Translations under genes and position numbers: made by a program
Shown: piece after piece, positions 19,052-62,104 of the stretch
Numbering within the stretch: position 1 is the stretch's first letter
Layout of the letters: every line of letters begins with the position of its first letter
DNA from: Phycisphaerae bacterium
Lineage (GTDB): Bacteria > Planctomycetota > Phycisphaerae > SM23-33
Direction of reading: 5' to 3'
Assembly: GCA_011050235.1 (NCBI GenBank)
Contig: DRGC01000042.1
Location: 1-64,000 of the forward strand
DNA length: 64,000 nucleotides
Notes under the pieces: generated by a model
Database searches by the model: none
The model's input: only the letters and a program-made list of their open reading frames with translations
Told to the model about the DNA's origin: nothing

Positions 19052-19062
19052 AGCTTTCACCA

Positions 19063-20489: not shown

Positions 20490-20504
20490 GAAATCCCTTT
20501 CGCC

Positions 20505-23674: not shown

Positions 23675-24132
23675 TAAGGCGTCTCCGATTCCGCTGGGCC
23701 CTTACCATACTTGCTCGGACACTTGGTCGCCACAACGTCGGCCTCGAACACACCGTCCTTGCCCATCCGGCCGGTCACGAGGATCTCGACGCCCGCCTTG
23801 AACAGGTCGGGCAGGACGCCCTTGTAGACGACCGGCAGCCCGCCCGACTCGGCCTTCTCGCCCACCATCGTGAAGGTGGCGGTGGAGGTCTCGATGTCGA
23901 TGACCAAGCCTTCCTCGATGGCCTTGCCTCGCAGGCGAACGGGCCTGGTGGCCTGACGCTCGGCGTCCCTGTACTGATACTTGGCGTCGGCGCCAAGCTT
24001 GGTGTCGGCGAGAAAATCATCCACGGTCAGATAGCTGGCCCGCCCGGCCATGACGCCGGCATAACCCAGATACCCAACAGCTCCAGCCAGGATCAGGCCC
24101 GCCACAAGAAACTTCACGCGAGTAGGATTCAT
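23674..24132 (-). CDS. ccmE: Haem chaperone CcmE, cysteine type
   Basis: 152 residues. One N-terminal membrane anchor (FLVAGLILAGAVGYLGYA), then the OB-fold haem-binding domain: VRLRGKAIEEGLV and VVYKGVLPDLFKAG are typical. The usual haem-binding histidine of the HxxxY motif is replaced by Cys: ATKCPSKY. This CxxxY form is known from Desulfovibrio and archaea that lack CcmH. The start is the ATG at 24132. First gene of the ccm operon. Confidence 0.92.
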   Translation of the reverse strand: MNPTRVKFLVAGLILAGAVGYLGYAGVMAGRASYLTVDDFLADTKLGADAKYQYRDAERQATRPVRLRGKAIEEGLVIDIETSTATFTMVGEKAESGGLPVVYKGVLPDLFKAGVEILVTGRMGKDGVFEADVVATKCPSKYGKGPAESETP

Positions 24133-24486
24133 AATTCTTCCGTCTATAGTAGCGAACACATTGTAGACAACAAACAGCATGCCAAAAAACCGGCCGCGGC
24201 GTCAAGTAGTTCCCCCCAGCAACGTTCGGCGCCACGCGGCATTGTGAAAAAAACCGATTGGGATTGACACGCCTCCGCCGTGGGGGTTCTCGCCGGTGAG
24301 AGAGTCTTGGCGATATCCGTCTTGCCGTGAGGAATCGTCACAAGCCGAGCTTGTCCGTTTTGACGGGCCTGCGGGCTAGCTCGGGCACATCGCTTCCAAA
24401 CAATGAGACCGTCAAGCCGCCTCTGATTCCCGCCAGTGGGACAGCGAGAGATCCCCCCCCGCCCTCCCGTGGGCCATTTCGGGCTG

Positions 24487-24526: not shown

Positions 24527-24542
24527 TGGTACGCAGGTTGCA
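24527..24542 (+). promoter_or_regulatory. Sigma-54 promoter for tetrahaem cytochrome gene
   Basis: TGGTACG-N4-TTGCA: GG at 24528-24529, GC at 24540-24541, ten bases between, matching the sigma-54 -24/-12 consensus with one tolerated change. Predicted transcript start is near 24553, about 90 bases before the cytochrome ATG at 24643. Confidence 0.82.
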
Positions 24543-24642: not shown

Positions 24643-25230
24643 ATGCGAAAACTTATCGTTGGCCTAGCCATCGTCGCCGTTGTTTGTGTGGCGACGAACC
24701 TGGAGGCGGCACATTCATCCTACGGCTGCAGTAACTGCCACGTCCCCCACTGGGCGGTCGACCCGGCTGTCGATCCTGACGCCTACGGCGTTCCGCTGTT
24801 CAGCCCGGCGCAGATTTCTGACGGCCTGCCGACCTATGATCTGTATACCAGCCAGTCGTTCGACGCATTGGCGACCGACATCGGTCAGCCCGATGGCCCC
24901 AGTAAGCTCTGCCTGGGTTGCCACGATGGCACGTATAGCCATGTGGACGACCCCAGAGCCACCTTCCTGGCCGGTGATCTGAAGCGTTCGCACCCGATTT
25001 CGTTCACCTACGATTCGGCCCTGTCCGCGAAGGTGCTTAACGGGTCGCTTCTTGATCCCAACGTGGCCCTGTCTGGCCTGACCCCCGCCGGCACGATCGC
25101 CCAGGATATGCTCACGGCCGACAAGCTGCAGTGCAGTTCCTGCCACGATGTCCACAAGCAAGGCATCGGTGACTACCTGCTGCGGTTCCCTTCGATCGTC
25201 ACGCTGTGCAAGACCTGCCACGACAAGTAA
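24643..25230 (+). CDS. Secreted tetrahaem cytochrome c, OmcE-like module
   Basis: 195 residues. Sec signal (MRKLIVGLAIVAVVCVA) cleaved near EAA/HSS. Four CXXCH sites: CSNCH, CLGCH, CSSCH, CKTCH, plus five other histidines in the mature part that could be distal ligands. The pattern CxxCH..PH, LCLGCHDG, SHPISFTY, LQCSSCHDVH, CKTCH resembles the small tetrahaem cytochromes such as Geobacter OmcE that polymerise into extracellular filaments. Start at the ATG at 24643 with AGGAG at 24631-24635. Sigma-54 promoter upstream, strong terminator downstream. Filament formation is inference. Confidence 0.85.
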   Translation: MRKLIVGLAIVAVVCVATNLEAAHSSYGCSNCHVPHWAVDPAVDPDAYGVPLFSPAQISDGLPTYDLYTSQSFDALATDIGQPDGPSKLCLGCHDGTYSHVDDPRATFLAGDLKRSHPISFTYDSALSAKVLNGSLLDPNVALSGLTPAGTIAQDMLTADKLQCSSCHDVHKQGIGDYLLRFPSIVTLCKTCHDK

Positions 25231-25256
25231 TTGACGTGACCGTCTAGTTTTTTTTG

Positions 25257-25297
25257 CGGGGCGGCGCCATTTTTTGCCGGCGCTGCCCCGTTTTTTT
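25257..25297 (+). terminator. Rho-independent terminator
   Basis: Left arm CGGGGCGGCGCC (25257-25268), 8-base loop, right arm within CCGGCGCTGCCCCG (25277-25290), one mismatch in the stem, then seven T (25291-25297). Placed 26 bases after the stop of the first tetrahaem cytochrome, so that gene is probably monocistronic. Confidence 0.85.
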
Positions 25298-25543
25298 GGG
25301 CGCATCTTCAGACCCCCTTGCCCCCCCCCGTATCTCACACTTGACCACATCCGGTCGAGCCACCTGCCCGCAGGGCGCCCCTGCATTCGACATAAGAATA
25401 TCGCAGGGCTCTAAATACGCCGGCGATTCCGGCCGATCTCGACATAGAGGAAAGCTTGCCCGCCCATTGGCCCGGATGTGAACGAATCCTGGGCTGAAAG
25501 TGGCGAGTGGAGGCCCTACGAGACCTTCTGTGTTGAGGAGCGG

Positions 25544-26260
25544 ATGCGTAGCCAGACCACGCCCATCGCCAAAGCAATTGGACTCCGACATCTCAACGAT
25601 GCCGGACGATCGGTATTTCGCGGTCATGGCCCGCTCCGCCAGACACCCCCGCACCGCAGCATCTCAACTGGCCTGATCCTGGGGCTACTCTCACTGCTGA
25701 TCACAGGGCTTCTATCAGTGGAAGGTATCGCAGGGCACACCGATATCGGCTGTAGCGATTGTCACGTCGTCAGCGCCGGCGACATGACCGTCGAGGCCTC
25801 CCGCGGGGGAATCTGGAGCGCCAAGCACACCCGAGACGCGGTGCCGACGTTCAAGGTCTACAGCAGTCCGTCGTTCGATGCACTGGGCACCGATATCGGC
25901 CAGCCCGATGGCGCCAGCAGGTTATGCCTGGGTTGCCACGACGGCAGCTATTCGGGCCTTCGCGGCCGGATGTCGGCCTTTGGCTTCAATGACCTGGCCC
26001 GCAGCCATCCCGTCTCGTTCACCTACAATAGCGCCTTGGTCTTGCGGGCGCCTCGCGGAACCTTGAACGATCCGCGGTCGGCGCCTTCGCGGCTGGGCGG
26101 GTCCATCGCCGCCGACCTGCTGGACGAGCGTGGGAAAATGCAGTGCACCTCTTGCCACAACATCCACTCCAAGCGCAAGGGCAACAGCCTGCTGCGATAC
26201 GACTACTCCCCCGGTTCCCGCAGCGGCAGCGAAATGTGCCGCGTGTGCCATAACCGCTAG
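25544..26260 (+). CDS. Tetrahaem cytochrome c paralogue, OmcE-like module
   Basis: 238 residues. Paralogue of the upstream cytochrome: CSDCH, CLGCH, CTSCH and CRVCH in the same order, with shared FDALGTDIGQPDGASRLCLG and SHPVSFTYNSAL stretches. The export signal (ISTGLILGLLSLLITGLLSV) begins only about 40 residues in, so the N-terminus is unusually long; the ATG at 25544 (GAGGAG close upstream) is my choice, a GTG at 25478 is possible. Exactly four non-motif histidines lie in the mature region, enough for bis-His ligation. I found no sigma-54 site before it. Confidence 0.8.
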   Translation: MRSQTTPIAKAIGLRHLNDAGRSVFRGHGPLRQTPPHRSISTGLILGLLSLLITGLLSVEGIAGHTDIGCSDCHVVSAGDMTVEASRGGIWSAKHTRDAVPTFKVYSSPSFDALGTDIGQPDGASRLCLGCHDGSYSGLRGRMSAFGFNDLARSHPVSFTYNSALVLRAPRGTLNDPRSAPSRLGGSIAADLLDERGKMQCTSCHNIHSKRKGNSLLRYDYSPGSRSGSEMCRVCHNR

Positions 26261-26302: not shown

Positions 26303-27463
26303 TTAGTCGCTGCGCGTTCCCGGAGTCGACGGCGCACGTGTTCCTGACTTTGGCGATGGCGGCTTTGTAGCGGTGCGCTTGATCATGGGCGGATAGGTGG
26401 CCGACTTCGACTTTCCGAACGCGTAGACCCCGATCTTGTTCTTGCCGAACTGATTGGCCACAAACAGCAGGTACTCCGCCTCGAAGTCCTCGTCGATATA
26501 GTCGGCAAAGGCATCTATGCTCGTCGTGTCGATGGCGAGCCCTGCCGGCATGCCCATCCCTTCGGGCCCCGCAGCCGCGCCCCCAAAGAACATCAGCAGC
26601 CTGCCTTCCGGCTCGAACAACTGGACGATTTCCCACTGCGCATCGGCAGTGTAAATAATATCATCGGGATCGATCGCAATGCCCTTGGGCCGGGCAAAGA
26701 ACCCGGGGCGGTCGCCCGGGGCCCCGATGTAGCCGATGAATTGGCCCCGGCGGTTGTAGATGTTGATGATGCTGGCCACCGTGTCACTGACGAAGATTCG
26801 GCCTTTCGAGTCGATGGCCAGATTCCTCGGGTCGCGAAGTTCGCCGGGCCCCTTACCGTTCTTGGCGATCAGCCGGAGGAACTTCCCGTCCCGCGACCAT
26901 GCCTCGACCTCGGCATCCGCCACGTCAGCCACAATCAGCTCATCCCCGTCGACAACCAAGTCGATCGGATTGCACGTGGCCCCATTGTCGATAAAGCGAA
27001 CGAACTGATCATCGGCATCGAACACCACCACCCGCTCGGCCATCGTATCGCAGACATACTTTGTGCCGTCCGTGTCGATCGTGATGTTGACCGGCTTGCG
27101 GATATTGCTGGCGTCGCCCAGCTGGCCGTGCGTCTTCGCTGCCACGTCGATGACGTGAACCCGCCCGCGGGCAATGTCGCAGATGTAGATCTTGCCATTG
27201 CGCGCCGCCACGCCGTAAGGGCTGGTGATCTCGCCGGCCGAACTCACCTCGCTGCCTACGATGAAATCGGCAAAGCTCGACTTACGATGTGACCACTGCT
27301 CCAGATCGCTGAAGCTCAGCAGGAACTGCAGCCGTGGCAGGTCGGGGGCAGGCGGGTAGAAAATTGCCTGGCTAATTTCCGGTGTCTCCTCTCCGCACCC
27401 AACCAGAAAGACCAAAGCCAGCAGCACGATGATTCGCCCAGTAATGCTTGCGTAACGTCTCAT
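26303..27463 (-). CDS. NHL-repeat beta-propeller lipoprotein
   Basis: 386 residues. Lipobox LVGC at about 20-23, so probably membrane-anchored in the periplasm or outer membrane. Repeated propeller blades of NHL type: SPYGVAARNGKIYICD, KPVNITIDTDGTKYVCD, DPRNLAIDSKGRIFVSD and RPKGIAIDPDDIIYTAD. AAGGAG lies 8 bases before the ATG. Transcribed from a sigma-54 promoter, divergently from the decahaem-porin operon, which contains a second NHL lipoprotein. NHL propellers accompany many multihaem cytochrome clusters; the exact role is not known. Confidence 0.85.
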   Translation of the reverse strand: MRRYASITGRIIVLLALVFLVGCGEETPEISQAIFYPPAPDLPRLQFLLSFSDLEQWSHRKSSFADFIVGSEVSSAGEITSPYGVAARNGKIYICDIARGRVHVIDVAAKTHGQLGDASNIRKPVNITIDTDGTKYVCDTMAERVVVFDADDQFVRFIDNGATCNPIDLVVDGDELIVADVADAEVEAWSRDGKFLRLIAKNGKGPGELRDPRNLAIDSKGRIFVSDTVASIINIYNRRGQFIGYIGAPGDRPGFFARPKGIAIDPDDIIYTADAQWEIVQLFEPEGRLLMFFGGAAAGPEGMGMPAGLAIDTTSIDAFADYIDEDFEAEYLLFVANQFGKNKIGVYAFGKSKSATYPPMIKRTATKPPSPKSGTRAPSTPGTRSD

Positions 27464-27967: not shown

Positions 27968-29209
27968 GTGCGTCGCCGAAAACCTTCTTCACAATCTCAG
28001 GGGAGCTCGTGGCGGCGGTCCATCCGCAACATGGTGGCGGTGGGCTCGATCCTGGTGATGACAACGCTGTTTCTCAGTTGCAGCCCGGCGACCGAGTACC
28101 GGGTCCTGTCGTTCTTCTTCGATGGCGTCCCCGTCCCGCCCGGGATGGAGGACGAGGCGGGCAAGAAGGAAATGATCGTCGGGCCCGACGGCCAACTGAT
28201 GGACCCCGACGACCCGCGGGTCAAGGATTTCCTCGCCCGGGACACCGTTGTGCCGACGGAGGACGACCTCCCGCAGGAAGAGGGCCTGATCTTTCACAAG
28301 CCGTACGAAAAGCGGCAGTGCATGGAATGCCACTCGCCCGAGGCGGGCTTCCAGGTCGCCATCACCACTGACGTCTGCAACACGTGTCACCAGCCCTACT
28401 ACGATCTGCCGGCGAATGAATGGATCCACGGGCCGGTGGCTTTGGGCAAGTGCTCGATGTGCCACGAGCCGCATGAGTCCAGGCACGACCACCTGTTGAC
28501 CGAGGCGATGCCGGACCTTTGTTTCTCCTGTCACGACGCCCCGCGCGTCCTGTCCAGGCCCTATCACGCCGAAGCCGTCACCGGAGCGTGCACCGACTGC
28601 CACGATCCCCACTCCGCCGGCAACCGGTCTCTTCTGGTCGACTCGAACACCTACCAGCGTCGCAAGGCCGGCATGCAGCTTCAACCCTCGGCCCACGCGG
28701 ATTGGGAAAAGGACACCTGCGCGACGTGTCATCTTGCCGAACAGTCCAACCTGACCGTCCCCGACGTGGACAGCGTCTGCCTGTCCTGCCATGAAGACGT
28801 CCCTCGTTCACCCGGCGAGACGCCGCTGCACGACCCGGTCGTCCAGGGGCAGTGCACGTCGTGTCACCTCGCCCACGACTCGCCGCTGAAGCACCTGATC
28901 AAGCCCGAGGCAGAGAAGAACTGCGCCGCATGTCACCCCGTTGCCGAGTTGTCCAAGGACAATCACCCGCGCTTCCACCGAGGGGAGTGTCTTACCTGCC
29001 ACACCGGGCACCGGTCGGCTCGGGACCATCTGCTCAAGGCGACGCCCACGCGCATCCTGCCGGCAACGCCGGCCACTCAACCGGCCGATGGGCGGGAAAT
29101 GCCCACCACGGCCCCGGCCACTCAACCGTCATCCCCGGCGCCCGCGGCCGGCCCCCGAGCCCCTACCACCGAGCCGGCCTCTGAAGATCTCACGGAGGAG
29201 CGTTCTTGA
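27968..29209 (+). CDS. Decahaem c-type cytochrome lipoprotein
   Basis: 413 residues starting at a GTG with GGAG upstream. Arg-rich N-terminus, hydrophobic segment and lipobox LFLSC near residue 38. Ten CXXCH sites (CMECH, CNTCH, CSMCH, CFSCH, CTDCH, CATCH, CLSCH, CTSCH, CAACH, CLTCH), many in doubled CxxCHDPH-like style. The C-terminal 60 residues are Pro/Thr/Ala-rich with ATQP repeats. Its stop overlaps the start of the outer-membrane barrel gene, as expected for the haem subunit of a porin-cytochrome conduit (compare MtrA/OmaB type). Side of the outer membrane is not determined. Confidence 0.87.
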   Translation: MRRRKPSSQSQGSSWRRSIRNMVAVGSILVMTTLFLSCSPATEYRVLSFFFDGVPVPPGMEDEAGKKEMIVGPDGQLMDPDDPRVKDFLARDTVVPTEDDLPQEEGLIFHKPYEKRQCMECHSPEAGFQVAITTDVCNTCHQPYYDLPANEWIHGPVALGKCSMCHEPHESRHDHLLTEAMPDLCFSCHDAPRVLSRPYHAEAVTGACTDCHDPHSAGNRSLLVDSNTYQRRKAGMQLQPSAHADWEKDTCATCHLAEQSNLTVPDVDSVCLSCHEDVPRSPGETPLHDPVVQGQCTSCHLAHDSPLKHLIKPEAEKNCAACHPVAELSKDNHPRFHRGECLTCHTGHRSARDHLLKATPTRILPATPATQPADGREMPTTAPATQPSSPAPAAGPRAPTTEPASEDLTEERS

Positions 29210-31236
29210 GTCGCCTTCGCTTGGCCATGACGCTGCTGCTCGTGCTGCCGATCAGCGCCCTGCCGTCGGTGGCGGAGGAGCAAAAGAAAGTGCCTATCCA
29301 GCCGCTCGGGCTTCTCGACATCGGCGGCGCCCTCTATACGCGCGTGGAGAGTGTCTCCGACAAGCGGGTTACCGAGACGGCCACCACCAAGACGACCACA
29401 ACGGAGGACGAGCTGATATTCGAAGAGGGAATTGAGCTGTCCGTCGAGGGGTACATCTACCACCCGTACCTCCTGGAATGGCGGTTGGGGCTGGACCTTG
29501 CCAAAACCCAGGAGACGATCACGCTCAACGACCTGGAGACCAAGACCAATGGGGACCTTCGCGGCTATGATATTTCCGCGCTGCTGCTGCAGGAAAAGCC
29601 GGTTTCGCTGCGGCTGTTCGCCAGCCAGACCGAAGACCTTCGCGACCGGGACGTCGGACAGGCCACCCGGGCCACGGAACAGCGGCGTGGGCTCGAGCTG
29701 TACGTCAAGGGACCGTTGCCGTCGACCTTCCTGTTGGAGAGGATCGAGATCGAGGAAAAAGGCACTCGGCGCACCGTGGAGGAGGACACCACCCACATCC
29801 GCGTGACCGTCGAGCACCGCCCGCATCGCGATTGGCTGACCGAGTTCTTCTACGACCGGGAGCAGACGGATGAAGTCTCCACCTTCCTCTCGGCCACCGG
29901 GGTAAGCCCGCCTCAGCAGTTCCCCGACACGAAGGACGAGTTCAACATCACCAATCTCTGGAGTTTCGGCCCGGAAGATCTCAGACACACCCTTTCGGGC
30001 AGCGCGAACTTTCTCAGCCGGTCAGGATTCTTTGAAAACAGGGTCACGTCGATCGATCAACGGCTCGAACTGGCCCACACCAAGACCTTCACGACGTTCT
30101 ATGCCGCAGCGTTGGACATCAACCGGACCGAGGCCGAGGAAGACCAGACCTTCAACGCCGAGATCGGTTTCGAAAAGAGCATCTACGACAGTCTGGACAT
30201 CATCGTCCGCGGAGAGATCTACCATCGCGCCATTGAGAAGAGCTCCGAAAGACGACGCGGCTTGTTCTTTGAGGCGGATTATCGAAAGAAAACGCCTATC
30301 GGCCGGTACACATCCTCGCTGGCGCTTGGGTGGGAGCGCGACGTGCAGAATTTCAATTCGGGAGTGCAGAGGGTCACCGATGAACGCGTGACGCTGGAGG
30401 ACACAACGTTCTTGGAGCTCGATGAAAAGAACATCACCGGCAGCATGGCGGTAACCAACGAGGACAAGACGATCACCTACGCAGAGATCGTGGATTACAT
30501 TCTTCGGGTCACGGGCGGGACGACCGAGATTCGCCGGACGCTCGGCAGCCTCATCGGCGACGGCGATACCGTGCTGGTCACTTACGTTTCACAACAGTCC
30601 CCTCACTCCATTTTCACCACCGATCACGTGGACTGGGATCACCGTCTGCGACTCAAGAAGATTCCCGTCATCCTCTATGCGAACTATCGCCTGCGCAACG
30701 AAAAGCTCACCCACGGCGAAGATCCGGAAAACCTGGATCGCGAGCAATCCTTTCTGGCCGGAACCCAACTGGACTACAAAGGGCTCACAACGGTCCTGGA
30801 GCATGAACGCCAAGATCAAAACCTTTCGCCGCCGTGGATCGCCAACCGTGTGGAGGTGACCTACCACCGAGCCCTCGCCCGCAATCTGGATCTGACCGTC
30901 AGCGGCAATTTGGAGTGGCTCCGCTACCTCGAAGCCCGAAAGTTCGGGCTCGAGCCCGGGGCCGAGACACTGAAGACGGCCACGGGGCGACTGTCGCTGA
31001 CCACGAAGGTGGGCCGAAACGCCGTGCTCCGTTTCGACAGCACCCTATCGCGCCTTAGCGGGCGGGAGAACCGAACGGAGTTTCAAAACAGCGTGTCCTT
31101 CGAGTGGCGATATGCCAAGTTGGATTTCTCCGTGGACGCCCACTATGATACGTACACAGACGAAAACCTCAGTGGCACGTCCAAGACGACCGGCAAGAAC
31201 GCTTCGATCATGTTCTACGTCAGGCGAAAGTTCTAA
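29206..31236 (+). CDS. Outer-membrane beta-barrel protein, candidate porin of a cytochrome conduit
   Basis: 676 residues. Signal peptide (LAMTLLLVLPISALPSVAEE), no haem sites, then alternating hydrophobic/polar strands throughout and a C-terminal strand ending in MFYVRRKF with the terminal Phe typical of outer-membrane barrels. Size matches MtrB-like sheath porins, about 700 residues, though I see no clear sequence match to MtrB. The TTG start (MSRLRLAM) overlaps the decahaem cytochrome stop by four bases. Position between a haem lipoprotein and a 12-haem cytochrome supports a conduit role; inference. Confidence 0.78.
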   Translation: MSRLRLAMTLLLVLPISALPSVAEEQKKVPIQPLGLLDIGGALYTRVESVSDKRVTETATTKTTTTEDELIFEEGIELSVEGYIYHPYLLEWRLGLDLAKTQETITLNDLETKTNGDLRGYDISALLLQEKPVSLRLFASQTEDLRDRDVGQATRATEQRRGLELYVKGPLPSTFLLERIEIEEKGTRRTVEEDTTHIRVTVEHRPHRDWLTEFFYDREQTDEVSTFLSATGVSPPQQFPDTKDEFNITNLWSFGPEDLRHTLSGSANFLSRSGFFENRVTSIDQRLELAHTKTFTTFYAAALDINRTEAEEDQTFNAEIGFEKSIYDSLDIIVRGEIYHRAIEKSSERRRGLFFEADYRKKTPIGRYTSSLALGWERDVQNFNSGVQRVTDERVTLEDTTFLELDEKNITGSMAVTNEDKTITYAEIVDYILRVTGGTTEIRRTLGSLIGDGDTVLVTYVSQQSPHSIFTTDHVDWDHRLRLKKIPVILYANYRLRNEKLTHGEDPENLDREQSFLAGTQLDYKGLTTVLEHERQDQNLSPPWIANRVEVTYHRALARNLDLTVSGNLEWLRYLEARKFGLEPGAETLKTATGRLSLTTKVGRNAVLRFDSTLSRLSGRENRTEFQNSVSFEWRYAKLDFSVDAHYDTYTDENLSGTSKTTGKNASIMFYVRRKF

Positions 31237-31237
31237 G

Positions 31238-32302
31238 ATGAGCCGTCATGTATGTCAGTCGACCGCACCCCCGATAGCCGCATTGATGCTGGCTGTCCTG
31301 ATCTCGGCGATCACCGGCTGCGCCCCCGCTACGATCGAGGAAGCCCATCCGGTCTGGCCCCCGCCGCCGGCAGAGGCCCGCATCCTTCATCTCAAGAACG
31401 TCCGGTCCATATCGGACCTGGCCAAACCATCGGCCTTCGACGGGTTCATTCAGATGCTCACGGGCGGCCGACAGCTCGCCCTGCTGCGTCCTCACGATGC
31501 TGCCGTCTGGGCGGATCGGTATCTGTTCGTCACCGACCAGGAGCAGCAGGCAGTGGTCGTGTTCAACCTGAAGACCGCGAAAGCATCCCTCATCACACAG
31601 GTCGGCGGGACGTTCCTGGTCTCGCCGGTGGGGGTGGCGGTCTGCGGCGAGTGGATCGCCGTCTCCGACAGCGCCCTAAACAGGGTCTACCTGCTGACGC
31701 CCAAGGGCAAGCTGATCAAGACCATCGTCAAGCCCGAGGGGTTCGCAAGGCCCACGGGCCTGGCCTACGATTCGGCCACCGGGCTGCTCTATGTCGTCGA
31801 CACGCTGGCCAACGAAGTGTGCGTGTTTAACCTGAGCTCCGGCGAGATGGTCCGGCGCTTCGGCTCGCGCGGCCAGGGGCGCGGACAGTTCAATTTCCCG
31901 ACGCACGTTTGCGTGGGCCCGGCCGGCAGGATCTACGTCACCGATTCGCTGAACTTCCGCGTTCAGGTCTTCGATGGCCAGGGCAACTACCTCTTCCACA
32001 TCGGCCAGCTCGGCGATGCGTCGGGCCATTTGGCCGTCCCAAAGGGCGTCGGGGTGGACAGCCAAGGCCACATCTACGTGGTGGACTCCTATTTCAGTCG
32101 GATCCAGATATTCAACGCCAACGGCGTCTTCTTGCTGGCCATCGGAGAGCCCGGCGAAGACTCGGGCGGCTTCCAGGTCCCTGCGGGGCTGACGATCGAT
32201 TCACGTAACCGAATTTACGTCTGCGACAGCTACAATGAGCGCATTCAACTGTTGCAGTTCGCTGGAGTGCCGGACGATGAAATTCCTTCTGAATCACCTT
32301 AG
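31238..32302 (+). CDS. Second NHL-repeat beta-propeller lipoprotein
   Basis: 354 residues. Lipobox ITGC near residue 28. Blades such as RPTGLAYDSATGLLYVVD, FPTHVCVGPAGRIYVTD, VPKGVGVDSQGHIYVVD and VPAGLTIDSRNRIYVCD form a six-bladed NHL-type propeller. Same domain plan as the lipoprotein at 26303-27463, with an analogous N-terminal region (PPPPAEARILHLKNV versus PPAPDLPRLQFLLSF), so the two are paralogues. The ATG at 31238 follows the barrel stop by one base; a longer in-frame start would lie inside the barrel gene. Confidence 0.85.
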   Translation: MSRHVCQSTAPPIAALMLAVLISAITGCAPATIEEAHPVWPPPPAEARILHLKNVRSISDLAKPSAFDGFIQMLTGGRQLALLRPHDAAVWADRYLFVTDQEQQAVVVFNLKTAKASLITQVGGTFLVSPVGVAVCGEWIAVSDSALNRVYLLTPKGKLIKTIVKPEGFARPTGLAYDSATGLLYVVDTLANEVCVFNLSSGEMVRRFGSRGQGRGQFNFPTHVCVGPAGRIYVTDSLNFRVQVFDGQGNYLFHIGQLGDASGHLAVPKGVGVDSQGHIYVVDSYFSRIQIFNANGVFLLAIGEPGEDSGGFQVPAGLTIDSRNRIYVCDSYNERIQLLQFAGVPDDEIPSESP

Positions 32303-33989
32303 TGTGGTGTGCATGGCCGTGCTGATCGGCGCCGTTTCGTTGGTGCTGGCGGATGTCGGGTCCAGTGTCTTGACCTCCAAGCACAACCTGTCATCCTCGG
32401 GCCCCGGGCCGATCAAGGTGGCGGGTGAGACCGAGGTCTGCAAGTTCTGCCATACCCCTCATGCATCCAATCCCATCGCGCCGCTCTGGAACCGCGAGGA
32501 CCCGGGGACCTATTACCAGACGTACAAGAGCTCCACGCTGGTCGCCAGCGTCGGCCAGCCCACGGGTTCGTCGCGCCTGTGCCTCAGCTGTCACGATGGC
32601 ACGATCGCACTGACCCAGACCTACAACCCCCGCAACTCCCCGTCAGGATCGATCTATATTTCGTCGCAGGACCGCGGATACATCGGCACGGACCTCAGCG
32701 ACGACCATCCGATCTCGTTTGTCTACAACAGCTCTCTGGTCGCCAAGAAAGGCCAACTCGCCAGCCCCAACTCGCTGCCGAAGGAACTGGTCCTCGACCA
32801 CGAGGGACGTCTGCAGTGCACGACGTGTCACGATCCCCATAACAACCAGTACGGCATGTTCCTCACCATGAACAACGCCGAGTCCCTGATGTGCCGCACC
32901 TGCCACATCATGGACGGGTGGGCCGCCTCGACCCATGCGAAGTCCTCGGCCGGCCTCAGCGGGTCCGCCCACGGCCAGTGGGACAACATCCGGGCCTCCA
33001 CGGTTCGCCAAGCCGCCTGCGAAGCCTGCCACCGCCCCCATACCGCCGGCGGGCGAGAGCGCCTCTTGCGGTACGAGGCCGAAGAGGACAACTGCCTGTC
33101 CTGTCACGACGGCTCGGTAGCCGACAAGAACATCGCCTCCCAGATGACCAGGCTGTCCGCCCATCCTGTCACGTTCGCCACCGGCGTGCACGACCCAACC
33201 GAAGACTACAGGAGCATGTCCAAGCACGTTGAATGTGTCGATTGCCACAACCCCCACCAGACGCGCAGCGGCTCGACGGCCGTTGCCCCGTTTATCAAGG
33301 CCTCGATGACGGGGATCTCCGGCTCATCGGGCTCGGGCGGGTACATCCCCGAGGCATCCTACGAGTTCCAGGTCTGCTACAAGTGCCACGCCGGCGCCGG
33401 CAGCACCGTTCGCAATCCGCTGGTGGACCGTGTCTTCATCAACACCGACGTCGCCGACGAGTTCTCGCCCAACAACCCCAGCTTCCATCCCATCGAGGTC
33501 CGTGGCAAGAACAGCGACGTTCCCAGTCTGTCGCAGGATTTCCGCACGACCTCTATTATCTACTGCACAGACTGTCACGGGTCCGATTCGAGCCAGGTCC
33601 TCGGCCCCCATGGGTCGATGTACCGCCCGCTGCTGGTGCGGCAGTACGCCATCGGCGACAACACCCCCGAAAGCCCAGCCGCCTATGCCCTGTGCTACGG
33701 CTGTCACGACCGCTCCGTGATCCTGAACAAAAGAAGAAGCTTCAAGGAGCACCAGAGGCATCTCGTCGACGAAGACGTCCCCTGTTCGGCCTGCCACGAT
33801 CCGCACGGCATCAGCGCTTCGCAGGCCAGCGGCGCCAACAGCGGCACGCACCTGATCAACTTCGACCGTCGAATCGCCACGGCATCCACAGCCGCGGGGA
33901 CCGGACCGTCCTTTGTCGATCGAGGCCGAAGAAGAGGCTCCTGCACGCTGCTCTGCCACGACAGAGACCACGACGACGAACGCTACTAG
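32277..33989 (+). CDS. Twelve-haem cytochrome c with N-terminal OmcE-like module
   Basis: 570 residues with a signal-type N-terminus (FLLNHLSVVCMAVLIGAVSL). Eleven CXXCH sites (CKFCH, CLSCH, CTTCH, CRTCH, CEACH, CLSCH, CVDCH, CYKCH, CTDCH, CYGCH, CSACH) plus a C-terminal CTLLCH of CX3CH type. The first about 215 residues match the tetrahaem cytochromes at 24643 and 25544 (FCHTPH, APLWNRE, LCLSCHDGT, DDHPISFVYNSSL, LQCTTCHDPH, CRTCH). Overlaps the NHL gene by 26 bases. Last gene of the operon. Probably periplasmic or secreted. Confidence 0.85.
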   Translation: MKFLLNHLSVVCMAVLIGAVSLVLADVGSSVLTSKHNLSSSGPGPIKVAGETEVCKFCHTPHASNPIAPLWNREDPGTYYQTYKSSTLVASVGQPTGSSRLCLSCHDGTIALTQTYNPRNSPSGSIYISSQDRGYIGTDLSDDHPISFVYNSSLVAKKGQLASPNSLPKELVLDHEGRLQCTTCHDPHNNQYGMFLTMNNAESLMCRTCHIMDGWAASTHAKSSAGLSGSAHGQWDNIRASTVRQAACEACHRPHTAGGRERLLRYEAEEDNCLSCHDGSVADKNIASQMTRLSAHPVTFATGVHDPTEDYRSMSKHVECVDCHNPHQTRSGSTAVAPFIKASMTGISGSSGSGGYIPEASYEFQVCYKCHAGAGSTVRNPLVDRVFINTDVADEFSPNNPSFHPIEVRGKNSDVPSLSQDFRTTSIIYCTDCHGSDSSQVLGPHGSMYRPLLVRQYAIGDNTPESPAAYALCYGCHDRSVILNKRRSFKEHQRHLVDEDVPCSACHDPHGISASQASGANSGTHLINFDRRIATASTAAGTGPSFVDRGRRRGSCTLLCHDRDHDDERY

Positions 33990-34111: not shown

Positions 34112-35185
34112 CTAGTCCGCCGTCGGTTGTGTCGTCGCCAGGCTGGCGGGCTGGGGGGATGCGGGCCGTCTTGGCTGGGTGGCGCGAGGCTGGATCGACG
34201 CGCCGATAAGCCGCCCGGTCAGTGTGGATTCGAAGGCTGAGCGAAACGCCTTGGCCGCCTCGGCGAGTTGCCCCTTGTGCTGATAGGCGACGCCCAGGAA
34301 GTAGTAGGCCTCGGCCGGATCGGGGTTCAGCTTGATCGCCACGCGAAGCGTCCGGATCGCTTCATCCCATTCGCCGAGTTGCACCATGGCGCCGCCCTTG
34401 AGCACGGCGATCCTGGCCGCCAGCGACGACCGCTCGTCCAGACGGTCGAGCAGGTCCATGGCCTTGTCGGGCCGGCGCAGCAGCAGCATCGCCCGGGCCT
34501 TGGCCAGTTTCAGACGGCCGTCCTTGGGCTGAATCTCCAGCCCCCGCTCCACTTCCAGCAGGGCCTGTTTGACCAGCCCCTTGTCCAGCAGCCTCTGGGC
34601 GACCTGCAGGTGGCGCCGGGCCATCCGCTCGGGCGTGTCGGCCACCACCTCGGTGGCGGCCAATTTCTTTTCGAGCGTTGCCCGGTCGATTTTCTTGGCC
34701 GCGAACGCCAGCCAGGCGTTCAAGTCCGCCCTGTAGGATTTCGGCAGGCCCGCCGATCGCGTCAGCTCCCGCCCGTCGGACAGGACCACAATGCTGCTCG
34801 GCCAGACATGGGCGCCGAACTGTCCGACGATTTCGTAGTCCGGGTCGAGAACGATAGGCCAGGGGACATTGGCGCCGAAATCGGCGACCTGTTTGGCCGA
34901 CAGGTCGCCGCTGAGGACAACCACCACCTGCGGGGCGGGGACATCCTTGAAGGCCTCTTGGGTCTGGGTGAGAACGCGGCGACTTTGATCCTGATCGGTC
35001 CGGACAAACAGGACGACCGTCGCCCCCTCGGGGGCTGGGACGGCCACGTCGACCCCACGGGTGTCCTTGGCGGCCAGTTTGTAGACGCCCTTCCGGCTTT
35101 CAGCGACCAGGGACGACGCCAGAGACACGATCACCGCGCACAGAACGATCCGCTTGCGGGTCTCAAGAGTTCGGTTGGTGTTCAT
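34112..35185 (-). CDS. Exported thioredoxin-fold plus TPR protein
   Basis: 357 residues. N-terminal signal (RKRIVLCAVIVSLASSLVAES). Residues about 35-165 look like a peroxiredoxin/thioredoxin-type fold (ATVVLFVRTDQDQSRRVL, PWPIVLDPDYEIVGQFG) but no CxxC is present, so it is not redox-active in the usual way. Residues about 185-310 contain TPR-type helices (AEAYYFLGVAYQHKGQLAEA). C-terminus Pro/Gln/Thr-rich. Overlaps the 15-haem cytochrome by 23 bases and is last in that operon; perhaps a scaffold or assembly factor. Confidence 0.68.
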   Translation of the reverse strand: MNTNRTLETRKRIVLCAVIVSLASSLVAESRKGVYKLAAKDTRGVDVAVPAPEGATVVLFVRTDQDQSRRVLTQTQEAFKDVPAPQVVVVLSGDLSAKQVADFGANVPWPIVLDPDYEIVGQFGAHVWPSSIVVLSDGRELTRSAGLPKSYRADLNAWLAFAAKKIDRATLEKKLAATEVVADTPERMARRHLQVAQRLLDKGLVKQALLEVERGLEIQPKDGRLKLAKARAMLLLRRPDKAMDLLDRLDERSSLAARIAVLKGGAMVQLGEWDEAIRTLRVAIKLNPDPAEAYYFLGVAYQHKGQLAEAAKAFRSAFESTLTGRLIGASIQPRATQPRRPASPQPASLATTQPTAD

Positions 35186-36719
35186 CAGATGTTCCTTCTA
35201 TCTCCGCAGGCGCCGGGGCGCTGGCGGGCGCCGTGGCGCTGCGGGGCGCCGCGCCGTCATTCGGTTCGGTGGGGGCGTCGCTATCGGTGGTCGACCCGGT
35301 GGAGACGGTCTCCGATTCGGCCGTCACCCGTGGAACCGGGTTGATGCGGTCATAGTCCATTCGCTCGTGGCAGCCCGATGCGCAGGTTCCGCCGGTTTCG
35401 GTGGGCGTGAAGCTGACGGGCAGCTCCCAGTCGCCGAAGGGAACGGTCTCGGCGATGTGCATGGGGTTGGTGCTGGCATGGGTGCTGTGGCACGCACGGC
35501 AGCTTCGCCCTTCCTTGGGCCGGTTCACGTGGACGTAATGGAGATTCGTCTTTCCGTTCCTGAAGTCCGTGACGGTGGTGGTCTGTCTGGCCAGAGCTAG
35601 TTGGTCGGTGTGGCAAGCGAAGCACAGACCGTAGGTGTCGACCTCGAACGATTCGTAGAAGGTCTTGGGATAGGGCGCGATCAGCAGTTGGGCAGCGGCG
35701 CCTCCGTGGACGTCGTGGCATTCGCTGCAATTGCCGTCGCGGATCGGGCCGTGCTTGTACGAGCCCGGCCGGGCCAGCTCGGCCATGCCGGCGACGCGCG
35801 TCTGCCCGTCGAAATCCAGGATGGGCCTGTCGTGGCAACTCAGACACGACGCCACGCCCTCGTCGTTGGCCAGGACGGGCCAGTTGCCGCCATGGGAGAC
35901 GTGGCAATTCATGCAGGCCGGCCCGTCGGTGACAGGGCTGTGGCGGATCGCGACATTGCTGATGAGCTTCTTGATGTCCTCGTGTTCGTGGCAGGAGACG
36001 CACAGGTCGACGGGCTCGGCCTTGAGATGATTGGCGTGATTGGACGCGTGCGTTTCGTGGCACTGCAGGCAGTCGCCTTTGACCGGCTCGTGGACGTAGC
36101 GAACGGTATCGATCTGCCGGCCCATGTCCTGGTGACAGTCGATGCACAGTTGCCGTCCCGTCGTCGACAGCAGGTTGGGATACGGCGACGTGTGCGACCG
36201 GTGACAGGCTGCACAACTGCCCGTGGCCACCGGGCCGTGGGTGTAGCGGCGGCCTCGGGTGACGTCATCGTGACACGATGAGCACATCTTGCCGACGTTA
36301 TCCTCGCGAAGCATTTCGACATTGTCCGCCCCATGGGGGTCATGGCAATCGAGACACTGGCCTTGGGCGACCGGCTCGTGGACGACCACGCCTTCGGCTT
36401 GCCCGATGTGGCAGAACTCGCAGAGCTTCTCTTTGGGCCCTTTGAGCTTGAAGGTGTGCTCGGCCACCTCGATATAGCTGTGACACATATCGCAGGCCCC
36501 GACGACCACCGGTCCGTGCAGGATCTCGTGGTCGATCTGCTCGCCATGGCAGCCGCCCTCAGTGCAGTTCATCACCCGCGTCGTCGGCCGAACCGACGGC
36601 GACAACGGCTCGGCGGCCCGCAGCACCGACAGGCCGATCTGCAGCGACAGAAAACCCACCGTCGCCGTCATCACCAGCGACACGAGCAGCCCGGCGCGGC
36701 TGGCGAAGCGTTGGCTCAC
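35163..36719 (-). CDS. Fifteen-haem cytochrome c with CX4CH and CX3CH sites
   Basis: 518 residues from a GTG at 36719 that overlaps the upstream stop (GTGA). One N-terminal hydrophobic segment. Thirteen CXXCH sites flanked by an N-terminal CTEGGCH (CX4CH) and a C-terminal CASGCH (CX3CH), 15 in total. Repeats of doubled CXXCH type, such as GQCLDCHDPH, GSCAACHRSH and GDCLQCHETH. C-terminal tail of about 60 residues is Pro/Ala/Thr-rich. The protein at 60616-62094 has the same order of motifs and the same end (FGDWELPVSF/FGSWDLPIGF), so they are paralogues. Periplasmic electron carrier is the likely role. Confidence 0.87.
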   Translation of the reverse strand: MSQRFASRAGLLVSLVMTATVGFLSLQIGLSVLRAAEPLSPSVRPTTRVMNCTEGGCHGEQIDHEILHGPVVVGACDMCHSYIEVAEHTFKLKGPKEKLCEFCHIGQAEGVVVHEPVAQGQCLDCHDPHGADNVEMLREDNVGKMCSSCHDDVTRGRRYTHGPVATGSCAACHRSHTSPYPNLLSTTGRQLCIDCHQDMGRQIDTVRYVHEPVKGDCLQCHETHASNHANHLKAEPVDLCVSCHEHEDIKKLISNVAIRHSPVTDGPACMNCHVSHGGNWPVLANDEGVASCLSCHDRPILDFDGQTRVAGMAELARPGSYKHGPIRDGNCSECHDVHGGAAAQLLIAPYPKTFYESFEVDTYGLCFACHTDQLALARQTTTVTDFRNGKTNLHYVHVNRPKEGRSCRACHSTHASTNPMHIAETVPFGDWELPVSFTPTETGGTCASGCHERMDYDRINPVPRVTAESETVSTGSTTDSDAPTEPNDGAAPRSATAPASAPAPAEIEGTSDEHQPNS

Positions 36720-38317
36720 GGGACGCCCTCCGGGCGCCGGGTCGGTGCAGCGACCGGCTCGGTCGTCGCTTCCCCGGCCGGCTCGGTCGACAGCTCGGCC
36801 GCCGGTCCGGTCGTCGGCATCGGCAGGGGCCGCGCACCGACACCCATAAGCTTCTCCCGGGCCCGCCTGAGCAGGTCCTGGGTATACCGCGGATTGTGCA
36901 CGCCCCAACTGCCGTCGATGCGGATGAGCTTCAGCAGGGCATCGGCCTCGGCAATCCCTCTCCGGGTGCGCTCATCGTCCCCGGGGGCAATCGACTCCAG
37001 CATCTTCTCGACGGTTTCGTAGAGTGCGCGCGTGTCGCGCTGCCACATCGGGATCATCTGTTCGCCCAGGCCGGGCTTGTGGCAACGGTCGCAGGCCTCG
37101 GCCGAGGCCGCCGCCACGGTCGCGTCGCTTTCGGGCTTGGCATCCACGGCTTTCGGTTTGACATGGCAGCCGGTGCAATCCACGTGGGCCAGGAACATGG
37201 GCGTCACCGGCAGGGATTCAGCCAGATCGGCCGCGGTGGGCTGAGTCGCCGGGGCGATCGGCAAGGTGCTGGGCGCCGATGCCGTGGTCACGCCGGGGGG
37301 AATCAGTCCGGGAACCTCATACGTTTCCTGCTGGACGGCGTGCTGGTTGACATGGCAGGCGCTGCAGTCGAACTGCTCCAGCGCCGTCGCCTCGGCGATG
37401 GGTCCATGACGAATGACGCCATGACAGCTGAAGCACTCGACCTTGTGCTCGCCGGCGGAATGCTCGTAGTGGAGCTCGGCGACATCGGCTACCTTCTCGG
37501 CGCCGAAGTCGTGGCAACTGAAGCAAGCGGAGTCCTGGACCTTCTTCTGGGCTTCGGTGACGTGGTGGTGGCAGGATTCGCACGCGGCGCCATAGGAGAC
37601 GTACTCGGCGTGAACAACCTTCAGGCCACGATACTCCACCGGCTCACTGGGCGGGTTGTGACACTTCTTACATTGGCGGGTCGGGACCTTCTCGTCGGAC
37701 TGCGAGTCGCCCTCGGCGCTCGGCGCGGTGGCCGGGACGGCCGCATCGGGCGCCTGCATGTACTCGGCGACGGGCTGGTCGGAGAGCAGGTGACAGGCAA
37801 TGCAGGCGTTGGTGTTGACCTCGAAATGCTCGTCTCCCTTCACGTGGGAGTGGCAGATCGTGCAATGGGTGTTGATGCCGAGATAGCTCGTCTCGACGAG
37901 ATGCTTGCCGTGATCGAAGAGGAACTCTCCTTCCTCCTTGGTCTGCTCGCGCACCTCCCCCAGATCGTGGCAGCCGGGCCGCGTGCACGAGAAATCGCTC
38001 ACCGAGGCCGACGGCTTACCGGAGGTCCGGCCGAGCACGTCGTCGACGAGCTGGCCCATGCCGTTGATCTTCGCCGCCAGGTAGTTCTGCATGCCCGGGG
38101 GGATATGACAATCGATACACGCGACATCTTCTTCGGCGTGGACGCTTGTCTTCCAGCTATCGTAGTAGCTGCCCATGATGTGACAGGCGCTGCCGCAGAA
38201 CCAGTTTTCGCTGGTGTAATGGATGGCGGCGACATTGAACACAAGAAAACCAACCCCTCCCAGCAGCGCATACCGCCACAGGCGGCGCGCCCATATGCGT
38301 CGCATCAACTTCAACAA
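36716..38317 (-). CDS. Membrane-anchored twelve-haem cytochrome c with NapC/NirT-like N-terminus, candidate menaquinol dehydrogenase
   Basis: 533 residues. N-terminal membrane anchor (RYALLGGVGFLVFNVAAI) followed by CGSACHIM, CIDCH and CTRPGCH with SYYDSWKTSVH and the PPGMQNYLAAKINGMGQL stretch, the style of NapC/NirT/NrfH quinol dehydrogenases. A further nine CXXCH sites follow; in total ten CXXCH, one CX3CH, one CX4CH. Start is a TTG at 38317 with AGGAG 7 bases upstream; an ATG lies at 38305. First gene of an operon with the 15-haem cytochrome and TPR protein. Would take electrons from menaquinol, the quinone made by the mqn genes here. Confidence 0.83.
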   Translation of the reverse strand: MLKLMRRIWARRLWRYALLGGVGFLVFNVAAIHYTSENWFCGSACHIMGSYYDSWKTSVHAEEDVACIDCHIPPGMQNYLAAKINGMGQLVDDVLGRTSGKPSASVSDFSCTRPGCHDLGEVREQTKEEGEFLFDHGKHLVETSYLGINTHCTICHSHVKGDEHFEVNTNACIACHLLSDQPVAEYMQAPDAAVPATAPSAEGDSQSDEKVPTRQCKKCHNPPSEPVEYRGLKVVHAEYVSYGAACESCHHHVTEAQKKVQDSACFSCHDFGAEKVADVAELHYEHSAGEHKVECFSCHGVIRHGPIAEATALEQFDCSACHVNQHAVQQETYEVPGLIPPGVTTASAPSTLPIAPATQPTAADLAESLPVTPMFLAHVDCTGCHVKPKAVDAKPESDATVAAASAEACDRCHKPGLGEQMIPMWQRDTRALYETVEKMLESIAPGDDERTRRGIAEADALLKLIRIDGSWGVHNPRYTQDLLRRAREKLMGVGARPLPMPTTGPAAELSTEPAGEATTEPVAAPTRRPEGVP

Positions 38318-39846: not shown

Positions 39847-40916
39847 CGATGGTTCACCTTCTTCACCGACCCGGGCCGGACTTTCGGATCGGGCGGTTCG
39901 GCCTCGGTGGAGCGTTTGAGATCGAGCATCTTGACGCCGGCGACGTAGTCGGTCAGGACGATCCGCCGGATATTCTTGAGCGACTCGACCGTCTGGGTCA
40001 TCCGTCGAAGGTTCTCATGGATCTGTCGCAGCGACGATTCGACCTGATCCCCGCCGCCGGCCTGTCGGCTGAGGACCTGAAGCTGCAGTTCAATCGTCGC
40101 CATGGCGTTGTTCAGTTCGTGGTTCAACGTCAGGGCCGCCTGTCCGAGGGTTTCCATCCGTTGCTGTTCGTGCGTGCGGATGCGTTCGGCCAGGCTGTCA
40201 TAGGCCTCGGCCAATTCGAGGAACTCGTCCTTCTCCTCCAGATCAGGCTGGCGGTCGTAGGCCTCCTGGGTGAGCCGGCGGCTGGTCTGAACGAGTTGAT
40301 CCACCGGCCCCAGAACCATCGCCGCCGCCCGCAGCAGCACGATGATCGACACATTGATCACCAACATGCTGCCCAGGGCCACCCCGAGGATCAGCCACCG
40401 AAAGCGGCTGGCCAGGGCGCCCTGCTCGCGGCGCGCGTGGGCTCGCGCTTCCTCGTTGATCCGCCCGGCGTCTTCGCGCATGGCTGCGGCGGCAGCCAGG
40501 GCCTGGAGATTGTACCGCCGGGCCAGCTCAACATCCTGAGCTGTCGCCAGCGAACTGACCCGGTGTTCGAACTTCGGGTACTTGGCCCGCAAATCGGCAT
40601 AGTACTTTGACGCCTCGGAGTTCTCGATCAGGTAATGGGCGCCGATCTCATCGAGCAGATGGCGCATCGTATTCACCTGATCGATCAACGCGTCGAGATG
40701 GTGGGTCTCCGCCACCTGCAACTGGTAGAGCTCCACCTCGATCTTCGTCAACGTCGCGTTCAACTGGTTGGTGTTGTCGACGGTCGTGAACGCCTCGGTG
40801 TTGACGTGATCCAGTTGGCGCAGCAGTCCATGCAGGGCCCAGATGTCGAAAACGGCCATGCAGACCAGCAGGATCACCAGCGATCCAAAAACGATCAGTA
40901 ATTTACGTCGTAGCAT
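39843..40916 (-). CDS. Kinase-like sensor with HAMP and DHp-like helix but no ATPase domain
   Basis: 357 residues. Membrane segment at about 6-26, periplasmic helical domain to about 170, second membrane segment (WLILGVALGSMLVINVSIIVLL), HAMP-like linker, then TLNHELNNAMATIELQLQVL, an H-box-like helix. The N and G boxes of the ATPase domain are absent; the protein ends after a short tail. It is not an obvious truncation, since the stop overlaps the next kinase start by 4 bases. It may feed the complete kinase beside it. Confidence 0.78.
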   Translation of the reverse strand: MLRRKLLIVFGSLVILLVCMAVFDIWALHGLLRQLDHVNTEAFTTVDNTNQLNATLTKIEVELYQLQVAETHHLDALIDQVNTMRHLLDEIGAHYLIENSEASKYYADLRAKYPKFEHRVSSLATAQDVELARRYNLQALAAAAAMREDAGRINEEARAHARREQGALASRFRWLILGVALGSMLVINVSIIVLLRAAAMVLGPVDQLVQTSRRLTQEAYDRQPDLEEKDEFLELAEAYDSLAERIRTHEQQRMETLGQAALTLNHELNNAMATIELQLQVLSRQAGGGDQVESSLRQIHENLRRMTQTVESLKNIRRIVLTDYVAGVKMLDLKRSTEAEPPDPKVRPGSVKKVNHR

Positions 40917-41914
40917 TTCGCCACGTCCTCAGGATCGGGAGCGGGCCAGTCGCTCGGGCGCTGCGGCGGCGGGTCGGATACCCCGATCTCCTTCCAAGCC
41001 GACTGAATGCAGTCGACCATGTTGTAAATCGCAACGTATTCCTGCGGTCGGCACGGCAGGAATCGCTTGGCTTCCATAACCGTCAATGTCTCGCGCCCCT
41101 GGGGGTCGTCGACCATCTCCAGCAGGATCTTCGTAATCCTGGCCCTCAGGTTCGGCGAAACCCCTCGCCGCAGCAGCAAGGCGTTATTGGGGACATCTGT
41201 CCCGGCCGCCAGCGTGCGGATCTTCCAGTCCGGATGCGCCCGCATGACGGCCTCCAGGCGCAGGTTCTTGACCGCCCCAGCGTCGACGCCGCCCTTGACC
41301 ACCATCTCCACAACGTCGTCGTGCGTGCCGGCCCAGACGACCTCGGGCTCGTCGGGCGTATTCCACAGCTTAAGATGCATGATAACACACCCGGCGAACA
41401 CCTGCCCGGCCGTCGTGGTCCGGACCATACCGATCGACCTCCCGCGCAGATGCTCCAGCCGCCTTATGGGCGAATCGTCCCGAACGAACAACACACCGTG
41501 ATACGTGCTCGTGCCGTCTATCGATTCCGGCTTGACGGTCACCTTGGCCCCCAGCCGATCCATCGCCAATACAGCCACGAACGAGCCCAGGAAGGCGGCG
41601 TCGATTTCCTCGTCAGCCAATTCGTGGAGGGCGTCTTCATAGGTGCGGAGCGTCACCAGTTGAACCGGCCGATCCAGCCGCAACGACAGGTAGTCGGCCA
41701 GGGCCCGATAACGCTTGTTCTGCTTGAAAATATCCCGTTCCGGGATCAAGCCGATCCGCAGCGGCGCCTCGCGCGACCCACTCCCGCCGACCGAGCCCGC
41801 CTCTACCCCCGAGGACGAAGGCGGCGTATGGGCCAACCAGATCAAGACCGCCACCAGCAGCGCTACGAGAGTTGTGTTCAGGACAATCCAGACGATCTTC
41901 ATTTTGATCTTCAT
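40895..41914 (-). CDS. PhnD-like periplasmic binding protein, sensor partner
   Basis: 339 residues. Signal anchor (IVWIVLNTTLVALLVAVLIW) then a type-2 binding-protein fold of the PhnD/SsuA family: LRIGLIPERDIFKQNKRYRA, DAAFLGSFVAVLAM and LRGRSIGMVRTTTAGQV. No ABC permease or ATPase is next to it; instead it overlaps the ATPase-less sensor by 22 bases, which points to signal sensing and not transport. I start at the ATG at 41914; the ATG at 41947 lies inside the sigma-54 promoter. Ligand unknown. Confidence 0.8.
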   Translation of the reverse strand: MKIKMKIVWIVLNTTLVALLVAVLIWLAHTPPSSSGVEAGSVGGSGSREAPLRIGLIPERDIFKQNKRYRALADYLSLRLDRPVQLVTLRTYEDALHELADEEIDAAFLGSFVAVLAMDRLGAKVTVKPESIDGTSTYHGVLFVRDDSPIRRLEHLRGRSIGMVRTTTAGQVFAGCVIMHLKLWNTPDEPEVVWAGTHDDVVEMVVKGGVDAGAVKNLRLEAVMRAHPDWKIRTLAAGTDVPNNALLLRRGVSPNLRARITKILLEMVDDPQGRETLTVMEAKRFLPCRPQEYVAIYNMVDCIQSAWKEIGVSDPPPQRPSDWPAPDPEDVAKCYDVNY

Positions 41915-41947
41915 GGCATATGCCTGGCCGTATTCAAGTAACGTCAT

Positions 41948-41963
41948 AGCAACCGGCGTGCCA
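41948..41963 (-). promoter_or_regulatory. Sigma-54 promoter of the sensor operon
   Basis: Read on minus: TGGCACG-N4-TTGCT, a perfect match to the sigma-54 consensus (GG at 41962-41961, GC at 41950-41949). Predicted start near 41937. The sensor operon would therefore depend on the same class of activator as the cytochromes. A dyad TGTCG-TC-CGACA (41970-41981) lies just upstream. Confidence 0.85.
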
Positions 41964-42119
41964 ACTCGCTGTCGTCCGACAATCTTTCCACCCGCCGACG
42001 GGGCATGGTTGCCCGCCCTCAGCGACCGCTTGAGTGTGCAAGGCCCTCCTTTACATCGGCCCAACGCGCCGTCAATACGCTATCCATTCTCATCCCGCCG
42101 GGCCCATCGGGTCGTCGCT

Positions 42120-47978: not shown

Positions 47979-47979
47979 G

Positions 47980-60555: not shown

Positions 60556-60615
60556 GTGTCTCCTAAAAGGATCCATTCCTAACGCCGGCCGCCCCTCATG
60601 GTCGACCATTTCATC

Positions 60616-62094: not shown

Positions 62095-62104
62095 CTTCGA
62101 CTCC

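Follow-up and report, generated by a model that had tools for sequence, protein, structure and literature searches.

OmcE-family tetrahaem cytochromes in a planctomycete gene cluster for probable electron export: a putative filament extender with candidate anchor and end subunits

We identified two neighbouring genes from a Phycisphaerae bacterium that encode probably secreted tetrahaem cytochromes of the OmcE family, designated P1 and P2, and the predicted structure of P1 has the OmcE fold. The window, which is the whole stretch of DNA analysed (64,000 nucleotides), also holds a surrounding set of conduit, carrier and signalling genes. We consider it probable that P1 is the extender of an extracellular OmcE-type filament and that the locus is a dedicated electron-export module, in which an 11-haem cytochrome would serve as the anchor and P2 as the end. 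The pair and its control elements are as follows.

24527..24542, + strand: sigma-54 (-24/-12) promoter of P1, exact TGGTACGCAGGTTGCA
24643..25230, + strand: P1, OmcE-type tetrahaem cytochrome, probably secreted, with the full set of 8 haem-ligand His; putative filament extender
25256..25297, + strand: intrinsic terminator isolating P1, 13-bp GC stem and U run
25544..26260, + strand: P2, OmcE-type tetrahaem paralogue without the distal His after haem 1

The P1 gene runs from an ATG at 24643, preceded by the Shine-Dalgarno sequence AGGAG, to the end of its stop codon at 25230, and encodes 195 aa with four CXXCH motifs. For P2, which also has four CXXCH motifs and a stop ending at 26260, the preferred start is the ATG at 25544 with GAGGAG just 5' of it; an alternative GTG at 25478 is likewise in the open frame. 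The two proteins share 47% identity, and in each the last CXXCH forms the very C-terminus. Hydrophobic N-terminal segments were recognised in both by inspection, pointing to putative export. The motif order given in the initial annotation (CxxCH, LCLGCHDG, SHPxSFTY, LQCxSCH, CxxCH) was found in both proteins with one minor correction, as the fourth motif reads LQCxSCH in P1 and MQCTSCH in P2, making the shared form (L/M)QCxSCH. Pfam and NCBIfam returned generic multihaem matches only, those from Pfam being short Paired_CXXCH and C7 matches around haems 3-4. Directly adjoining P1 is a cytochrome c maturation (ccm) operon (18353-24180, - strand), in which CcmE was recognised by Pfam and the CcmF-, CcmA-, CcmB- and CcmC-like ORFs were assigned from sequence and order only. 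ORFs resembling a ResB/ResC pair also precede the OmcE locus in Geobacter-like genomes (L162).

Kinship with OmcE was evident from both sequence and fold. The search of P1 against all PDB sequences retrieved two entries only, 9YUQ (2.4e-8) and OmcE (7TFS, 4.6e-5), and the top two entries for P2 were likewise 9YUQ and OmcE (2.3e-5 for OmcE). A profile of 105 homologues matched 9YUQ at 1.8e-34 and OmcE at 2e-34, followed by a partial match at 3e-7; 9YUQ and OmcE were the only full-length PDB matches for P1, P2 and the profiles. The relative L029, from the same phylum, aligned with OmcE over its whole length (4.3e-29), including the N-terminal TKHDLSS/SEHDFSG motif. The AlphaFold2 model of P1, built with the 105 homologues, had a pLDDT of 83.5 and a pTM of 0.80, and a model from only 25 homologues (pLDDT 65), which gave no fold matches, was set aside for it. 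Among 350,542 PDB chains, Foldseek returned the OmcE nanowire 7TFS as the single match to the model (probability 1.00, TM 0.59/0.52, 199 columns). Since the E-value of this match is 1.6e-3, conviction comes from the agreement of fold and sequence. Model confidence is low over residues 1-30, which form the arm bearing the N-terminal His, haem 1 and the CHVPH motif. Profile and fold search thus support the OmcE-type assignment of the initial annotation, and none of the best matches was a soluble periplasmic cytochrome, the finding it had named as refuting. A soluble c3/c7-type identity of P1 and P2 was ruled out by fold and profile, with no c3/c7 fold match. In the phylogenetic tree, a planctomycete tetrahaem clade contains P1 and P2 and is distinct from OmcE, which groups nearer the N-domains of the 11-haem proteins; because the clades are separate, P1 and P2 cannot be assumed to be orthologues of the filament former.

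In OmcE, haem 2 is ligated by a His of the neighbouring subunit (PMC12203936). Eight His columns are common to OmcE and the tetrahaem proteins, namely those of the four CXXCH motifs and the N-terminal, CHxPH, DHP/SHP and CHDVH His. Aligned with OmcE, including its N-terminal TKHD, P1 keeps all eight, and P2 keeps seven, with CHVVS after haem 1 in place of CHxPH (CHVPH in P1). Owing to this missing His, we call P2 OmcE-like and not a standard OmcE-type member. Across 116 tetrahaem proteins, collected by a motif search of the best 80 loci and the planctomycete matches (some on short contigs), there is no variation in the His of the four CXXCH motifs or in those of the DHP and CHDVH motifs. The N-terminal His is present in 112 of the proteins and the CHxPH His in 105, leaving 11 without it. 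Among loci L056-L135, the CHxPH His was lost in 8/29 genes of multi-copy loci versus 0/51 of single-copy loci (Fisher p = 1.5e-4, calculated on related sequences that are not independent). Parsimony required at least six such changes on a tree of moderate support. The loss falls mostly in second paralogues next to an intact copy, including those of Bacteroidota and Calditrichota. P1/P2 is the only tandem pair with the loss known in its class, and the loss was not found in the other planctomycete tandem pairs (G005, G046 and G055), which keep the His. Several Bacteroidota carry a CHxPH-less paralogue directly 5' of the genes for the second NHL lipoprotein (NHLb) and the 11-haem protein (L071 6668-7285, L073 11741-12388 and L078 16338-16982), a fixed slot distinct from that of the intact tetrahaem gene.

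The interface donor of OmcS is His16, which sequence alignment equates with the CXXCHxxH His of haem 1. If the OmcE donor is the equivalent residue, P2-type proteins would, by analogy, be donor-less end subunits; if it is another residue, they would carry an open or altered haem and could still have an end-type role.

The own sigma-54 promoter and strong terminator that had been claimed for P1 were both confirmed. The promoter is an exact match to TGGYRCRNNNNTTGCW, and the terminator has a predicted folding energy of -35.2 kcal/mol (z = -3.5) followed by a U run. A chance origin of the site was rejected, as the 64 kb window contains two exact sites against 0.13 expected. Exact sites were also observed 5' of tetrahaem genes in four relatives (L005, L009, L034 and L075). 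The second site in the window belongs to the following group.

38530-39846 and 39843-40916, - strand: two histidine kinases (Pfam HisKA/HATPase)
40895..41912, - strand: PhnD-like periplasmic binding protein, probable sensor (Pfam Phosphonate-bd 8e-45)
41948..41963, - strand: second exact sigma-54 site, ahead of the PhnD-like sensor/kinase genes and the cytochrome operon
42120..43502, - strand: sigma-54-dependent response regulator with receiver, AAA and Fis HTH domains (Pfam Sigma54_activat 2e-65)

The PhnD-like ORF opens at 42064, and its likely ATG is at 41912. Together with the two kinases, the PhnD-like protein and the sigma-54 regulator (40895-43502, - strand) form a local signalling unit, and we infer that this two-component system regulates P1.

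Downstream of P2 lie the genes of the putative conduit and electron supply.

26303..27463, - strand: NHL beta-propeller lipoprotein a (UetH/I-like), lipobox LVGC (Pfam NHL 8e-14)
27968..29209, + strand: decahaem lipoprotein cytochrome, 10 CXXCH, lipobox LFLSC (Paired_CXXCH 3.8e-42; haem count)
29206..31236, + strand: putative outer-membrane beta-barrel (UetC-like), secreted, 676 aa, C-terminal F
31112..32302, + strand: NHL beta-propeller lipoprotein b, lipobox AITGC (Pfam NHL 2.5e-29), true start probably internal
32235..33989, + strand: 11-haem cytochrome (UetJ-like), putative filament anchor, N-terminal OmcE-type tetrahaem domain fused to a 7-haem domain
34112..35185, - strand: thioredoxin-like/TPR protein (Pfam), conserved in planctomycete clusters
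35163..36908, - strand: 13-haem cytochrome, probable periplasmic carrier
36716..38317, - strand: NapC/NirT-type 10-haem inner-membrane quinol dehydrogenase (Pfam Cytochrom_NNT 8.9e-17; haem count)

Pfam thus recovered the NHL-propeller lipoproteins that the initial annotation had placed beside the pair. Its outer-membrane barrel agrees with the length, secretion and terminal F of the 29206..31236 product and with homologues that fill the same slot across many phyla; this candidate gave no Pfam match, and we retain it as putative. Elsewhere in the window, a 13-haem paired-CXXCH cytochrome and a small cytochrome c554-like protein are encoded near a 4Fe-4S protein (60064-62169, - strand), possibly another respiratory module. 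A FeoB ferrous iron transporter is encoded a few kilobases away from the electron-export genes (47971-50223, + strand).

The first ~190 mature residues of the 11-haem protein constitute an OmcE-type domain (OmcE 4.4e-21, 9YUQ 5.5e-24) with an OmcE-like N-terminus, SKHNLS. All eight ligand His of this domain are present in 61/61 homologues, and 60 of the 61 N-domains form one clade (support 0.99), next to which OmcE branches. The fusion of a filament-type domain to a conduit protein fits the form expected of an anchor. An 11-haem gene was not found beside omcE in Geobacter-like genomes. Away from omcE, the same genomes encode the two halves of an 11-haem-like protein in separate genes, one for a tetrahaem protein of 282 aa and one for a heptahaem protein of 368 aa (L168 8245-11730, L169 8486-11920). 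These split genes are accompanied by a trihaem gene and an NHL lipoprotein gene, and adjoin an operon resembling pilMNOPQ with pilB/pilC.

The tetrahaem family was found in 7/60 relatives and in 12/294 genomes of the phylum, and 15 of the 16 planctomycete genomes with a tetrahaem gene also encode the 11-haem protein. The same-class and same-family relatives are Phycisphaerae/Planctomycetota MAGs, which supports a planctomycete origin of the window. The cluster core is present around relatives in Bacteroidota, Calditrichota, Chlorobiota/Ignavibacteria, KSB1 and Gamma-/Betaproteobacteria, and also in Verrucomicrobiota, Desulfobacterota and other Phycisphaerae, with conduit genes syntenic across phyla. 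The expectation that such proteins would be unusual in a planctomycete therefore holds insofar as the family is patchy there. Many other phyla commonly carry it, it matches the published Uet type, and the genome scan ruled out that it is unique to planctomycetes. In one relative of the same class (G055, C129; L166 873-4799), a 4-kb stretch contains five OmcE-type tetrahaem genes, of which four are arranged in tandem on the same strand, and such tandem amplification fits an abundant structural subunit. In a Desulfobacteraceae cluster (L171 3074-6160), a gene for a 24-haem cytochrome of 1028 aa lies ahead of the OmcE-type gene.

In the mechanism we propose, quinol would be oxidised by the NapC/NirT cytochrome, from which electrons would pass to the 13-haem periplasmic cytochrome, then to the decahaem lipoprotein inside the barrel, and on to the 11-haem cytochrome at the surface. 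The OmcE-type N-domain of the latter would offer a filament-compatible face on which P1 could stack, and each P1 would continue the haem chain via a His donated to its neighbour, as in OmcE. Sigma-54 and the local two-component activator would turn P1 on. Because P2 has lost the distal His next to haem 1, we propose that it is a specialised end subunit, either a cap or a terminal reductase, which could join the chain and could not continue it normally. More tentatively, one OmcE-type fold may have taken three roles, as extender in P1, as membrane-side anchor or seed in the N-domain of the 11-haem protein, and as end subunit in P2-type proteins.

P1 and P2 might instead be monomeric electron shuttles with the OmcE fold, soluble or surface-bound, that carry electrons from the 11-haem cytochrome to mineral and do not polymerise. 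UetA has been described simply as an extracellular tetrahaem cytochrome (PMC10734462), the P1 clade differs from that of OmcE, and the four distal His of a single chain might, in principle, be enough for four haems within one monomer. OmcE, however, shares all eight His, and one of them is nevertheless exchanged between its subunits. By fold and sequence, P1 is closest to the OmcE filament and a 16-chain assembly rather than to shuttles of the c3/c7 type. The N-terminal arm and haem 1 are also modelled with low confidence in P1, as expected if they pack on a neighbour. We regard such shuttles as unlikely. Still less probable, in our judgement, is a discrete short heteromer of P1, P2 and the 11-haem protein that lengthens the conduit by a few nanometres with no open-ended filament. 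The 11-haem protein does carry the same domain, the number of tetrahaem genes is no more than one or two in many clusters, and the missing ligand His of P2-type copies would suit an end piece; yet the separate, strong sigma-54 expression with an insulating terminator and the tandem arrays in relatives suggest that P1 is needed in excess.

Either reading of P1 is compatible with P2 being a decaying or redundant duplicate whose missing His has no special role, which we consider possible but doubtful. The sister planctomycete pairs keep the CHxPH His, and no other tandem pair of the class is known to have lost it. Against decay, P2 has an intact frame, is 47% identical to P1 and retains every CXXCH and the other distal His; moreover, second paralogues in Bacteroidota and Calditrichota have repeatedly dropped the same His, and some of these genes lie just before the NHLb/11-haem pair. 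On balance we favour a P1 filament anchored by the 11-haem protein.

The OmcE-type pair in this planctomycete is real and well supported, and its category is already known, a wide occurrence of OmcE homologues having been reported (cited in PMC12307469). Of more interest than the pair itself is the three-role pattern. Across phyla there is a genetic tie between an OmcE-type subunit, a barrel conduit and a protein with the same fold plus further haems, and this tie makes the question of anchoring directly testable. Reviews name the anchoring, capping and electron entry of cytochrome nanowires as open questions (PMC12307469; PMC7096707), and note that direct biochemical evidence tying porin-cytochrome conduits to nanowire formation is lacking. 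The physiological role of cytochrome filaments is disputed (PMC11077965). The three-role reading, if true, would explain nanowire attachment, seeding and termination in this planctomycete and in many phyla. The cluster would extend probable nanowire respiration to planctomycetes, and it suggests that the published Uet clusters are nanowire systems. A link between UetA/UetJ and OmcE wires was not found in the literature searched, which did not include the OmcE, archaeal-filament and Tenderiales papers, and may already be published.

Compared with OmcE of Geobacter sulfurreducens (PDB 7TFS), P1 likewise has four haems, with full-length homology, the same fold and the eight ligand His, and it is probably secreted too. 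The N-terminal His lies ~18 residues before the first CXXCH in OmcE and ~5 in P1, which has a shorter arm. P1 and P2 belong to another clade, and P2 is without one distal His. Their genes sit in a conduit operon, whereas the omcE-like loci of Geobacter relatives have no adjoining 11-haem gene. The entry 9YUQ, a 'putative multiheme cytochrome c' with 16 chains of one protein, belongs to the same family as P1 and P2 over the full length (profile 1.8e-34). OmcS, OmcZ and the archaeal PcECN and AvECN nanowires are likewise extracellular wires built of multihaem c-type cytochromes. Homology to them was rejected, as OmcS alone matched the P1/P2 family in sequence, weakly and in pieces, and none of the four matched the fold of P1.

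The Uet (undecahaem electron transfer) type of Tenderiales and Gallionella comprises the tetrahaem UetA, the barrel UetC, the NHL proteins UetH/I and the undecahaem UetJ (PMC10734462). As in that pathway, tetrahaem, undecahaem, beta-barrel and NHL genes share one cluster here, the barrel being assigned by position, length and homologues. Because the UetB isomerase (rotamase domain) and the UetDEG trihaems were not found among the ORFs examined in 24-45 kb, we call the cluster Uet-like. It also differs from Uet in its decahaem lipoprotein, 13-haem cytochrome, NapC/NirT quinol dehydrogenase and sigma-54 two-component system. MtrCAB and other porin-cytochrome conduits resemble the planctomycete cluster in combining a barrel, an adjoining decahaem cytochrome and a surface multihaem cytochrome. 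The surface module is MtrC/OmcA in MtrCAB, whereas here it consists of OmcE-type proteins and NHL propellers.
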